A stretch of DNA of 41,005 nt from Candidatus Nanopelagicales bacterium (GTDB lineage: Bacteria; Actinomycetota; Actinomycetes; S36-B12; UBA5976). This document shows positions 18,507 through 22,905 of this stretch, piece after piece. The translations under genes were made by a program, and so were the position numbers. The stretch covers positions 1 through 41,005 of the forward strand of contig JAEMSA010000011.1 in assembly GCA_016463095.1 (NCBI GenBank). Reading direction: 5' to 3'. The notes below the pieces were generated by a model that saw only the letters and a list, made by a program, of their open reading frames with translations, ran no database searches and had not been told where the DNA came from. Every line of letters begins with the position of its first letter. The stretch's first letter is position 1.

Positions 18507-18935
18507 GTGCTAAAGAGAGTCCTGTTGCTATTAACTCTTTCCCTCACAGTTTCGGCTTGTAATCAAGTGTCCCCAACTACTCAAAGTGCCTCAAATGCAG
18601 ACATATATGTAGTCAATTGCGTGACTTTTGAGCAAAAGCCAGTCGAATTAGTTCTTTATTGTGCCGATGCGGGTCAAATATTGAATGAAATCTCATGGGC
18701 TAGCTGGGCATCAACAAATGCTATCGGCGTAGGAACCTCCACAACTAATGACTGTGAACCAACTTGTGTGGAAGGAACCGACGTTGTTTCGGCAGTGGAA
18801 ATTAAATTAACTGCACCTATTACCGGTAAATCTGGCAAAAGTGTTTTTAGTAAGGTTGAAATTCAATATGACAAAGTACAACCAAGTGGTGTGATGGATG
18901 AAGTACTTGATTTACCGACAGATGTTTTTAATTAG
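18507..18935 (+). CDS. Predicted secreted lipoprotein, actinobacterial family
   Basis: A 142-residue exported protein. A short basic N-terminus (MLKR), a hydrophobic run and the lipobox VSAC predict acylation at Cys18. The mature part has four further cysteines, arranged as VVNC, LYCADAG, then DCEPTC. The pattern 'CADxG..L..I.W..W....A.G.G.....C.P.C' resembles a widespread family of small secreted actinobacterial proteins of unknown function. The start is GTG and no Shine-Dalgarno is evident, so the mRNA may be leaderless. Its end overlaps the convergent histidine kinase gene by 8 nt. I do not assign a function. Confidence 0.8.
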   Translation: MLKRVLLLLTLSLTVSACNQVSPTTQSASNADIYVVNCVTFEQKPVELVLYCADAGQILNEISWASWASTNAIGVGTSTTNDCEPTCVEGTDVVSAVEIKLTAPITGKSGKSVFSKVEIQYDKVQPSGVMDEVLDLPTDVFN

Positions 18936-20247
18936 GAAAAACTAGTCTGATTCGAAGACCGTTAAACACAGAGTCTTCTAAAAATATTTGGCCATTGTGT
19001 TTATCAACAACGGATTTAATGATGCTCATTCCTAAACCAAATCCCCCGGTATCTCTAGATCGTGATTCATCTAGTCGGGAAAATCTCTCAAAGACTTGAT
19101 TTCTGGCACTAGGTGGTATTCCTGGTCCAGCATCATCAATAATTATCACTGTGTTGCTGTCACTTTGTTTTATTACCACTTCAACATTTGAATCAACGGG
19201 GGTATGGCGCAAAATATTTTGTGAGATATTTGAAAAAAGTTGTCTCATTGAATCTTCGTCACAGCGGATTAATGCCTTAGCATCACCTTTAAATACCACA
19301 TTCCTATTTGAATTATTTGAAGTTAAGTCTTTAAAATATTCTTCAATAATTTCTCTGATGTCTAAGGATTCGTAGGTAAGGGATGCCACAGAATCTGCTT
19401 TGGTTAAAGTTAGCAAATCTTTAACCAGTCTTTCCATTCTTAAGCTTTCTGTTTCAATTCTTGAAGCTGCCCTATCTCGCTGGTCTTGATCAATATTTTC
19501 TTTTTGCAAAATTTCTGAATAACCCCTAATCACGGTAAGAGGGGTTCTAAGTTCATGTGATGCATCTGAAACAAATTGTCTTAAAGCCAGCATCATTTTA
19601 TTAATAGCTAAAGATAATTCCCCAAATTCTGTGCCACTTTTTGCCCCAGGCATATTCCTTGAAAAATCACCTTCTGCAACTGCATGTGCGACATCAACCA
19701 TTTGGATAACTGGTTTGAAGAATCTACTCACAGTAAACCAAGCAAGAATTCCACTTAGTAGAGAAATTATTATTGCCGCAAAAGCTGTGTTAGTTAATAC
19801 TTCCCCGGTTGCCCTTCGAGACTCTTTCAATGAAGCAGCCAAAACATAAATTTCATTGGTGCGACCTTGAAATGCTAAAACTCTATAGAAATCTTTATCT
19901 CTCACTGTGATTATTTTGGTACTTGCTTCAAACACTTGAGCAGGAGTTAATTGTGGAAATACGTCATCGTCATCGTTTATGCCTGCGGATCTAAGAATTG
20001 TTAAAGATCCATCTGCCTCAAATCGCGCAATGGAAATATAGGAATCGGCTAAACCTCTGGCTGGGGAAAGTGTTTCGCCACGTAATTCTTTCAAAAGTCT
20101 TGGTTGGCTTATAGAGGTAATTAGTGCATTATCAATTGAGTCGCTAAATGTTTTTTGCGCATTATTCACCGCAATGCCGCCAAGTGCAAAAGTTGGTATT
20201 GCAGACAATACGGCTGTTAAAATTGAAATTCTTGTCCTAAGTTTCAT
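18928..20247 (-). CDS. Sensor histidine kinase (two-component system)
   Basis: Membrane kinase of 439 residues. A first transmembrane segment lies at about 8-28 and an extracytoplasmic sensor region of about 125 residues follows. A second segment is at about 152-173, then a HAMP domain (about 174-226). The dimerisation domain has the phosphoacceptor His231 in SDASHELRTPL. The ATPase domain has the N box near Asn344, G1 DDAGPGIPP (371-379) and G2 GGFGLGMSI (401-409). All catalytic boxes are intact. Its ATG overlaps the response regulator by 4 nt, so they form one operon. The sensor region is not recognised, so the signal is unknown. Confidence 0.95.
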   Translation of the reverse strand: MKLRTRISILTAVLSAIPTFALGGIAVNNAQKTFSDSIDNALITSISQPRLLKELRGETLSPARGLADSYISIARFEADGSLTILRSAGINDDDDVFPQLTPAQVFEASTKIITVRDKDFYRVLAFQGRTNEIYVLAASLKESRRATGEVLTNTAFAAIIISLLSGILAWFTVSRFFKPVIQMVDVAHAVAEGDFSRNMPGAKSGTEFGELSLAINKMMLALRQFVSDASHELRTPLTVIRGYSEILQKENIDQDQRDRAASRIETESLRMERLVKDLLTLTKADSVASLTYESLDIREIIEEYFKDLTSNNSNRNVVFKGDAKALIRCDEDSMRQLFSNISQNILRHTPVDSNVEVVIKQSDSNTVIIIDDAGPGIPPSARNQVFERFSRLDESRSRDTGGFGLGMSIIKSVVDKHNGQIFLEDSVFNGLRIRLVFPN

Positions 20248-20927
20248 TTGGCTTCAATCTGGTAGCCAATACCACGCACAGTTCGTATGTATGCGCTATC
20301 TCCTAATTTTTTTCTTAAGTAAGAAATATATGTGTCAAGTACTGCTCCATCCGTTGCAAAATCTAGCCCCCACACCACACTTAGAATTTGTTCTCTCGTT
20401 AAAACTCGTCCAGAATTTTCCATCAGATATTGCAATAATTTAAATTCAGTTGGTGAGGTTTCAATTTCTTTATCATTAACACTCACTCGATAATTTAAAA
20501 TATCTAAAGATATATTTCCATTTACTAATACATTTCCCTCAGTAGGCTTATTCTTGGATCTTCTTAAAACTGCTGCCACTCGCATAAGTAGTTCTTCTAA
20601 ACCAAAAGGTTTGGTAACAAAGTCGTCTGCACCTAACCCAAAACCAATTGACTTATCATCTTTTTGATCTCGTGCAGTTAAAACAATTATGGGAATATTG
20701 TTATTTTCATTTCTCAGTTTTTCTATTACGCCGAAACCATCTAATTGAGGCATATTTATATCAAGGATTACTAAATCGGGTTTTTCTTCCCTAATAAGTC
20801 TTACAGCTTCCATGCCATGTTTGGCAGAAATAGTTTCATAACCATTCATGCGTAGAGCATCTTGCAATAGATCATTAAGTGACGTCTCGTCTTCTGCTAC
20901 CAGAATTCGAGCTAGGGAGTTAGTCAC
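20244..20927 (-). CDS. OmpR/PhoB-family response regulator
   Basis: DNA-binding partner of the kinase downstream. With the GTG start chosen here the protein has 227 residues. The receiver domain has the acidic pocket AEDE, phosphoacceptor Asp56 in VILDINMP, Thr84 and Lys106. The C-terminal winged helix has TREQILSVVWG and VLDTYISYLRKKLG, and ends with the VRGIGYQI typical of the family. GTG at 20925-20927 is preceded by TAGATT seven bases upstream, suggesting a leaderless mRNA. An in-frame TTG at 20957 would add ten residues but has no better signal. Likely targets include the adjacent secreted protein gene, by position only. Confidence 0.94.
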   Translation of the reverse strand: MTNSLARILVAEDETSLNDLLQDALRMNGYETISAKHGMEAVRLIREEKPDLVILDINMPQLDGFGVIEKLRNENNNIPIIVLTARDQKDDKSIGFGLGADDFVTKPFGLEELLMRVAAVLRRSKNKPTEGNVLVNGNISLDILNYRVSVNDKEIETSPTEFKLLQYLMENSGRVLTREQILSVVWGLDFATDGAVLDTYISYLRKKLGDSAYIRTVRGIGYQIEAK

Positions 20928-20979
20928 GGTTACTAATCTATTCGCTTTAGTTTGCAAGATGCTCTACAAGCCACCGGTT

Positions 20980-21558
20980 TTAGTAAGTCAGTGATGCAGT
21001 TTGGGCGGTTCCCAAATCAGCACCACGATGACTTCCTAATTTTCCTACCCAGGCTGCTTTGGCTGCCTTGATTGCATCAGCTTGAGCTTGGGTGATGGTG
21101 CTATTAGAAACCAAGGAAGTAAGAACTTCGTCTCTAATTACTGTGATGTCTTCTTTTGGAAGAGCACGCAGTGCGGTCTTAATTGATGTTGCTTCAGCAG
21201 TAGTTATAGTTCCTGCTGTTACAAGATCTCTAATTGATTTTTTAGTTGTTGCTGCAGCTTTAACTGCATTTGCTTTTGTTTGAGTCAAGGTTGAATTGCT
21301 AACTAAACCTGTTAAAACTGTGTTTAATTTAGTTACAAACTTGGCATCAAGCTTTGTTTTCATTGCTGCTTTAAAAGCATCAGCTTGTGTTTGGTTAATC
21401 GTTCCAGCAGTAACAAGAGATGCGATTGCGCCACCTCCGCGGTTACCTTCACCTCTGCCGCCGTTTCCGCCACCATGGTTAGCGAATGCTGCAGAAGAAG
21501 TTGAAGCAATTAGTCCAGTAACAACTAAAGCTGCTAGTACAGTTCTTTTCTTGATCAT
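20980..21558 (-). CDS. Secreted protein with four helical repeat motifs
   Basis: A 192-residue exported protein with no family I can name firmly. A signal peptide (MIKKRTVLAALVVTGLIAST, cleavage probably after AFA near residue 27) is followed by a Gly-rich linker (about 29-44). Four copies of an 18-residue motif follow, at 48-65, 85-102, 112-129 and 149-166, of the form LVxxxTxTxxxAxxxKxA. Spacing of 37, 27 and 37 residues implies a duplicated unit of about 64 residues. The motif resembles short-helix repeats in exported proteins such as DUF2680 types. AGAGGAA precedes the ATG. The gene lies just upstream of the two-component pair on the same strand. Confidence 0.85.
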   Translation of the reverse strand: MIKKRTVLAALVVTGLIASTSSAAFANHGGGNGGRGEGNRGGGAIASLVTAGTINQTQADAFKAAMKTKLDAKFVTKLNTVLTGLVSNSTLTQTKANAVKAAATTKKSIRDLVTAGTITTAEATSIKTALRALPKEDITVIRDEVLTSLVSNSTITQAQADAIKAAKAAWVGKLGSHRGADLGTAQTASLTY

Positions 21559-21699
21559 TTTTTCCTCTTTCTGTTGTCTTGCCTTACTTAAACTTTGATG
21601 GGCTTACCCTTAAATCATCTAAAACTATTCTGAGAGTTTCCTGAGAATAAGTGCCATTTTAAGTCGCCCATCCCTCACAAATCAGCCATAATTAGATAT
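21559..21699. promoter_or_regulatory. Divergent promoter region between the secreted-protein gene and ndh
   Basis: A 141-nt divergent gap. On the + strand CATAAT at 21687-21692 matches five of six bases of the -10 consensus and lies exactly 7 nt before the ndh ATG, so ndh is probably transcribed as a leaderless mRNA. No good -35 is visible. On the - strand the secreted-protein gene has a strong AGAGGAA ribosome binding site and so has a real leader. Confidence 0.55.
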
Positions 21700-22905
21700 A
21701 TGAGAGTTGTAATTGTCGGAGCAGGCTTTGGTGGACTTGCTGCTGCGCGAAAACTTTCTCAGCAAAAAGATGTAAATGTCACAGTGGTAGATAAACATCC
21801 TTACCAACTTTTTTCTCCCCTGCTTTATCAAGTAGCAACAGGTGGACTACCTGAAGATGACATTGCTTATCCAGTACGAGCAGCTATTCCTGGAGTTAGC
21901 TTTCGAAAAGGTGAAGTAACAAAGGTAAATAGTAATTCCAAATCCATTATTTTGGCTGATCAATCAACTATTGAATATGATCATTTAGTTTTAGCCACCG
22001 GAAGTACTGGCACCACCTTTGGTGTACCTGGTGTGCAAGAAAATGCTTTGCAAATGAAATCAATTTTGGAAGCCCGTGTAATCAAGAAACAATTGCTGGG
22101 CATGTATGAAGAAGTTGAAGCAGGACATAAACCCAAAGAATCTCTCAAAGTAGTTGTGATTGGCGCGGGTCCTACCGGTGTTGAAGTTTCCGGTGCAGTG
22201 GCTGAATTACAGAAAAGTATGAAACATGAATTTCCTAATATTTACAAAATGGCTTCAGTAACTTTAGTTGAAGCTGGCCCCAGAGTTTTACCAATGTTTC
22301 ATGAAAAATCTTCCAAACATGCCCAATCTGAATTAGAAGAAATTGGGGTATCTGTTAAAACTAATTCAGCTGTTGATCGAATGTATGAAACCGATGTTCA
22401 CTTAAAGAGTGGTGAAATTCTTTCTGGTGGAACTCTCATTTGGGCTGCAGGTGTTGCGGCGTACCAAACTTGGACTTCCCTTGGTGAAACAGATCGATCT
22501 AATCGAATCAAGATAGATGAGAATCTTCAAACCAGTGCAGGAATTTTTGTGATTGGTGATGGTGCTCATTTGCAATTCAAGGGAAACCCTCTTCCCATGA
22601 TCGCACCGGTTGCTTTACAAATGGGCAAACATGTTGCTAAACAAATAATAAGTTTAAAAAACAATAAACCTTTAAGCCCGTTTAAATACACCGATAAAGG
22701 ACAAATGGCCACAATTGGCAGAAGAAGAGCTGTGGTGGAAATGCCTGGTGGGTTAAGAATGCATGGAACAATTGCTTGGTTAACCTGGTTAGCGCTACAC
22801 GTTTTCTATTTAGCTGGGGGAAGAAATCGAATCAGTGTTATTGCTGATTGGATGTGGAATTACATTGCCTGGGGTGTTGGCCCTCGACGAACTGTTATTG
22901 ATTAA
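21700..22905 (+). CDS. ndh: Type II NADH dehydrogenase (NDH-2)
   Basis: Single-subunit, non-proton-pumping enzyme that passes electrons from NADH to quinone at the inner face of the membrane. The 401 residues have an FAD Rossmann motif GAGFGG (7-12), the YQLFSPLLYQVATGG segment typical of NDH-2 (35-49), a second NADH-binding fold VVVIGAGPTGVEVSG (151-165) and the FAD-closing FVIGDGAH (283-290). The C-terminal hydrophobic/aromatic helix LTWLALHVFYLAGG (361-374) is the probable membrane anchor. It faces rpoC and shares a bidirectional terminator with it. Other FAD-dependent quinone reductases are possible but fit less well. Confidence 0.93.
   Translation: MRVVIVGAGFGGLAAARKLSQQKDVNVTVVDKHPYQLFSPLLYQVATGGLPEDDIAYPVRAAIPGVSFRKGEVTKVNSNSKSIILADQSTIEYDHLVLATGSTGTTFGVPGVQENALQMKSILEARVIKKQLLGMYEEVEAGHKPKESLKVVVIGAGPTGVEVSGAVAELQKSMKHEFPNIYKMASVTLVEAGPRVLPMFHEKSSKHAQSELEEIGVSVKTNSAVDRMYETDVHLKSGEILSGGTLIWAAGVAAYQTWTSLGETDRSNRIKIDENLQTSAGIFVIGDGAHLQFKGNPLPMIAPVALQMGKHVAKQIISLKNNKPLSPFKYTDKGQMATIGRRRAVVEMPGGLRMHGTIAWLTWLALHVFYLAGGRNRISVIADWMWNYIAWGVGPRRTVID

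Follow-up and report, generated by a model that had tools for sequence, protein, structure and literature searches.

A predicted secreted four-repeat DUF2680 protein encoded in conserved order with a PhoP-like two-component system in aquatic actinobacteria

Results

A repeat-protein gene ahead of a regulator and a kinase

The window, by which we mean the whole 41,005-nt stretch of a Candidatus Nanopelagicales contig that was analysed, contains the following features:

21630..21646, minus strand: putative response-regulator box TCTCAG-GAAAC-TCTCAG, 88 nt upstream of the ATG of the repeat gene
20980..21558, minus strand: gene for a probably secreted four-repeat protein of the DUF2680 type, 192 aa (ORF and translation)
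21481..21558, minus strand: signal peptide, residues 1-26, ending AFA before NH (read from the sequence by eye)
21430..21480, minus strand: Gly-rich linker, residues 27-43 (read from the sequence; the model starts here with low confidence, mean pLDDT about 50)
21364..21417, minus strand: repeat motif 1 (LVTAGTINQTQADAFKAA), starting at residue 45
21253..21306, minus strand: repeat motif 2 (LVSNSTLTQTKANAVKAA), starting at residue 82
21172..21225, minus strand: repeat motif 3 (LVTAGTITTAEATSIKTA), starting at residue 109
21061..21114, minus strand: repeat motif 4 (LVSNSTITQAQADAIKAA), starting at residue 146, the best DUF2680 stretch
20244..20957, minus strand: PhoP-like response regulator of the OmpR/PhoB family (Pfam; NCBIfam; best PDB match Mycobacterium tuberculosis PhoP, 3r0j/9ji3)
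18928..20247, minus strand: sensor histidine kinase (HAMP, HisKA, HATPase_c) with a predicted extracytoplasmic PAS/Cache-like domain (model and weak Cache/PAS matches)

The repeat gene, the regulator gene and the kinase gene thus follow one another on one strand, in agreement with the initial annotation, which had placed the repeat gene just upstream of a regulator/kinase pair. A Shine-Dalgarno-like GAGG precedes the ATG of the repeat gene, and the listed start of the regulator lies within 22 bp of that gene; this TTG may be internal to the true annotation, and an in-frame GTG is nearby.

The N terminus of the repeat protein, MIKKRTVLAALVVTGLIASTSSAAFA followed by NH, comprises a basic start, a hydrophobic stretch and an AxA site without a lipobox, and reads by eye as a Sec signal peptide. 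Beyond the linker, four LVxxGTITQAQADAIKAA-like motifs are arranged with start-to-start spacings of 37, 27 and 37 residues, so that each of these elements, as initially annotated, was found on reading the ORF. The duplication of a ~64-residue unit, proposed at the same time, was clearly borne out: the two halves share 27 of 64 residues, their BLOSUM62 local score of 118 compares with a maximum of 56 in 2000 shuffles, and the mature protein scored 113 against itself at an offset of 64, compared with a maximum of 48 in 500 shuffles.

Homologues retain the repeats

Relatives were found in 49 of the 166 genomes covered by a search within the host's order. A scan of 84,980 species genomes yielded 142 confirmed relatives, and the best 80 of these are mostly labelled as Nanopelagicales and related actinobacteria, with Firmicutes (Desulfosporosinus, Heliobacterium, Clostridium) ranking lower. 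The labels Bifidobacterium breve and Rubrivirga on several metagenome bins (L082, L087, L104, L110, L115, L133, L134 and L084) look wrong, and the genes in these bins resemble those of aquatic actinobacteria. A copy in the congeneric genome G005 is 98% identical and lies in the same gene order.

Homologues without the repeats would have spoken against the repeat reading; the large majority still have four motifs, with six or seven in a few. The extended homologues (L056, L059 and L065), which occur at two-component-linked loci, suggest further duplication of the unit. The distance from a B motif to the following A motif is constant at 23-27 residues in the relatives, and an A motif usually precedes its B motif by 33, 37, 40, 44 or 47 residues. 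The latter values step by about one or two helical turns, and we read the A helix as continuous, with a length that varies by whole turns.

DUF2680 membership and an all-helical model

The repeat protein scored 31.7 bits (E 1.7e-7) against Pfam DUF2680 (PF10925), above the gathering cutoff of 25 bits, and 30 of 31 aligned relatives matched the same profile at E <= 0.01. By profile score the protein is thus a DUF2680 member, as initially suggested. A PF10925 search of translated genomes gave just 15 bits per single stretch, because the full score adds up across the repeats. It carries the L-x-x-G-x-[IL]-T-x-x-Q-A motif of the secreted DUF2680 proteins, and the signal peptide read by eye would make it secreted too; however, the profile spans 57 positions, or about one motif, whereas the window protein is a fixed A-B-A-B duplication with four motifs, and in the actinobacterial branch it goes with a two-component system. 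We found no functional description of DUF2680 members in the literature searched, where a single paper gives the family's name.

An AlphaFold2 model built on 31 sequences shows an all-helical core at pLDDT 95-98 (mean 87, pTM 0.72). Of the 'periplasmic helical protein' in the initial annotation, the helical part agrees with this model, and 'periplasmic' is a loose term for a probably monoderm actinobacterium. A Foldseek search of the PDB, a method that is weak for small helical proteins, returned no match at E < 1, and nothing significant came from a viral structure library.

Membership of the CpxP/Spy-like families, also suggested initially, found no backing: nothing significant linking the protein to CpxP, Spy or ZraP emerged from profile, PDB sequence or fold searches, the solved CpxP, Spy and ZraP structures being absent from the Foldseek matches. 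The LTXXQ profile (PF07813) gave no match at E <= 1, and just [IL]TxxQ-like letters are present inside the DUF2680 motif. Pfam matches to CARD and L19e were below cutoff and chance-like, and no match was found in plasmid records.

Linkage to the two-component system

Among 40 actinobacterial homologues drawn from the best 80 of 142 in the genome scan, 26 have a regulator directly downstream on the same strand; at these linked loci the regulator is 50-56% identical to that of the window, and a kinase comes next where the contig allows. Within the host's order, 17 of 30 loci have the order repeat gene, regulator, kinase. The other 14 of the 40 scanned actinobacterial loci have no two-component neighbour, indicating that this type of protein also works outside such systems. 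When the repeat proteins were placed in a tree, a single supported clade (99/99) took in 11 of the 12 unlinked sequences, and two changes were enough to explain the linkage label, compared with a mean of 9.7 changes in shuffles; the window sequence falls among the linked ones on a long branch, a position without firm support.

Two kinds of neighbourhood were seen in the unlinked clade (L055, L058, L060, L064, L071 and L073 on the one hand, L063, L068 and L070 on the other), one with a YaaA-like gene plus a gene for an RNase H/phosphatase fusion, the other with a gene resembling that of a D-Ala-D-Ala carboxypeptidase (PBP4/DacB). In Firmicutes and others, six DUF2680 genes (L098, L105, L121, L122, L138 and L155) have a regulator/kinase pair within 4 kb, in other orders or divergent; the few Firmicutes cases may be due to chance, two-component systems being many there.

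In the congeneric genomes G001 and G006 the corresponding region contains rpoC, NDH-2, a small lipoprotein gene and rpsL, and the repeat gene, the regulator gene and the kinase gene are all absent between NDH-2 and the lipoprotein gene. This joint absence indicates that the three genes were gained or lost as a unit, which we refer to as the cassette. The corresponding lipoprotein-like gene of the window (18507-18935, plus strand) has no Pfam family, and in the congeners lacking the cassette it adjoins NDH-2 and rpsL.

A direct-repeat box upstream of the repeat gene

A search of 21559-21699 for binding repeats of the regulator, as initially proposed, revealed TTATTCTCAGGAAACTCTCAGAATAG at 21630-21646, a perfect direct repeat of TCTCAG with an 11-bp period. 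TCTCAG-N5-TCTCAG occurs as a single exact copy in the 1.2-Mb genome. At the same place, linked homologues have TCACAG-N5-TCACAG, and two weaker half-sites often continue the series with an unchanged period; half-sites 3 and 4 are degenerate in the window. Upstream of L078, L080, L081, L083 and L088, up to four half-sites occur with the 11-bp period (TCACAG, TCACAG, CCCAG, TCCCAA), an arrangement that would fit two tandem regulator dimers.

A box score of at least 10 of 12 was reached at 18 of 27 linked loci (window included) versus 1 of 14 unlinked loci (Fisher p = 3e-4, the loci being related and not independent). Across 15 non-redundant upstream regions, the box carries 1.39 bits per column, compared with 0.19 in the upstream flank. 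Exact TCWCAG-N5-TCWCAG sites numbered 16 in 12 genomes, nine of which bear the cassette, and 9 of these sites are at this promoter; the reversed control pattern gave 6. A promoter scan gave match counts equal to those of shuffles. The near-unique box in front of the gene suggests that making the repeat protein may be the main job of the signalling system.

The regulator and the kinase

The regulator combines a receiver domain (Response_reg, 104 bits) with a winged-helix output domain (Trans_reg_C, 92 bits), and a direct-repeat box with an 11-bp period stands at its putative target promoter. The NCBIfam equivalog cutoffs for PhoB, MtrA and WalR were not reached, and the nearest solved relative was M. 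tuberculosis PhoP. We therefore class the protein as a PhoP-like member of the OmpR/PhoB family, a likeness to PhoP that reflects a one-way PDB ranking and not orthology.

M. tuberculosis PhoP binds TCACAGC-N4-TCACAGC as a tandem dimer, with box contacts made by Asn212, Val213, Glu215, Ser216, Tyr217 and Tyr220, and a water shared by Asn212 and Ser216 touches the third base of the half-site (PMC4832192). The box type, a TCACAG direct repeat with an 11-bp period, is the same, whereas the window has TCTCAG. In the recognition helix of the window regulator, Val213, Tyr217 and Tyr220 are kept, and Asn212, Glu215 and Ser216 are replaced by Ala, Asp and Thr; among relatives whose box is TCACAG, many retain Asn, Val, Glu, Tyr and Tyr. 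The change of Asn212 to Ala parallels that of the third base from A to T in the window box, but this parallel is suggestive only, because TCACA is retained in relatives that have Ser or Thr in place of this Asn. We know of no repeat-protein partner in PhoPR.

Among actinobacterial two-component systems, CutRS of Streptomyces likewise senses outside the cytoplasm and has targets connected with secretion stress, the HtrA proteases (PMC12802291); it differs in its box, TAWATAAA, and in sensing by two conserved cysteines. Neither CutR nor MprA provided a matching regulator type, since their published boxes (TAWATAAA and TKTTAAGAAM, respectively) do not match. The kinase sensor domain, at about residues 28-158, was modelled as a helix plus a five-stranded PAS/Cache-like domain (pLDDT 75), and its structural matches were weak.

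Control by the adjacent two-component system, as initially proposed, gains good, though indirect, support from the box, the conserved order and the joint gain or loss of the three genes, and the operon is very probably activated by binding of the regulator to the box.

A second type of secreted partner

Each of the ten regulator orthologues detected in the host's family at E <= 1e-57 lies next to a gene for a small, apparently secreted helical protein. The partner is the repeat protein in three of them (G000, G005 and G019) and a divergently transcribed Ala/Lys-rich protein in the other seven, with a further case of the latter in another family (L026). These Ala/Lys-rich proteins (L022, L023, L024, L026, L027, L028, L161 and L162) are probably secreted and helical, have 132-186 aa and are encoded divergently from the regulator orthologue; two of them weakly match Pfam LTXXQ (CpxP/Spy), with a best E of 0.0022. 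Homology between them and the repeat protein was not supported (hhalign probability 25%), the aligned stretch being a low-complexity Ala-rich helix.

A direct-repeat box faces the divergent secreted-protein gene at five of six loci tested; two of the five repeat TCACAG perfectly, and the other three deviate from TCNCAG at one position. The independent pairing with divergent helical proteins supports the view that this regulator lineage drives a secreted helical protein. It is possible, although we propose it tentatively, that aquatic actinobacteria have a PhoP-like system with an exchangeable secreted helical third component, either a DUF2680 four-repeat protein or an unrelated Ala/Lys-rich protein, behind the same type of box, each tuning the kinase outside the membrane.

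Discussion

With moderate confidence, we propose that the locus is an autoregulated three-gene cassette whose main product is a secreted helical repeat protein that would act as a CpxP-like accessory in kinase feedback. From the gene order and its conservation, the box, the joint gain or loss and the repeats, we infer the following course of events. The kinase would sense an envelope cue through its extracytoplasmic PAS/Cache-like domain and phosphorylate the PhoP-like regulator, which would bind TCTCAG-N5-TCTCAG as a tandem dimer and switch on the operon, including its own gene (autoregulation). The repeat protein, as the main operon product, would be secreted and act outside the membrane, where it may bind exported or misfolded proteins, in the manner of a chaperone, or another envelope ligand, and would damp the kinase, closing a feedback loop.

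In organisation, the best analogue is CpxP-CpxRA of Escherichia coli, because the only evident targets of the present system are itself and the repeat protein. The cpxP gene is divergent from its two-component genes, whereas the repeat gene is the first in its operon, on the same strand, and its host is probably monoderm. CpxP is periplasmic, is the strongest CpxR target and inhibits CpxA by negative feedback (PMC4755656; PMC11078701). Both are small helical proteins, secreted or predicted to be so, encoded beside an OmpR/PhoB-family system and targeted by it (here by inference), but no relation in sequence or fold was detectable. The repeat protein would thus work like CpxP or Spy without being, as far as tested, a member of their group; by this analogy, the accessory role itself is quite possible, if still tentative.

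A less likely reading is that the system induces a helical protein that serves, bound to wall or surface, as a spacer or stabiliser and takes no part in kinase feedback. The flexible Gly/Arg/Lys-rich ends of the window protein and its charge of +9 (pI 10) would suit such a role, as would the A-to-B spacings, whose steps of roughly whole helical turns are what a rod- or hairpin-like element of adjustable length should show, and the existence of an unlinked clade with some members beside a D-Ala-D-Ala carboxypeptidase-like gene. However, the charge is not conserved, relatives having pI values from 4.8 to 10.7, and a Pfam search of the repeat protein found no wall-binding domain or sorting signal.

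It is very improbable that the repeat gene is a chance neighbour and that the box serves the regulator alone or the divergent NDH-2 gene (21700-22905, plus strand), with which the repeat gene shares a 141-bp intergenic region. The box faces the repeat gene, linked homologues that lie beside other genes elsewhere still keep both box and order, and NDH-2 has no box in the congeners lacking the cassette, a sign that the box is part of the cassette. Equally improbable is a metal-binding resistance or sensing protein of the ZraP, CnrX or Metal_resist type, since the scores that hint at it are insignificant and below cutoff (ZraP, E 0.0073, 16.6 bits, cutoff 200; Metal_resist, E 0.035, 14.7 bits, cutoff 29.2) over a stretch that includes the signal peptide, no ZraP structural match or adjacent metal transporter was found, and the mature window protein has no Cys and two His, with His-rich tails in some relatives only; the metal sensing initially suggested is thus without support.

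We found no description of the cassette of repeat gene, regulator and kinase in the literature searched. We regard it as a two-component system with a dedicated, probably secreted partner, a known kind of arrangement in a new form, and as a monoderm counterpart to the CpxP-CpxRA design. Its hosts, the Nanopelagicales and their relatives, are abundant, genome-streamlined freshwater and marine bacteria, and it is striking that such genomes keep a two-component system with no evident targets beyond itself and a single secreted protein. The cassette gives the uncharacterised DUF2680 family a regulator, a putative binding site and a testable role, and, since two unrelated, probably secreted helical proteins occupy one slot next to a single regulator lineage, the role of these partners can be tested directly.
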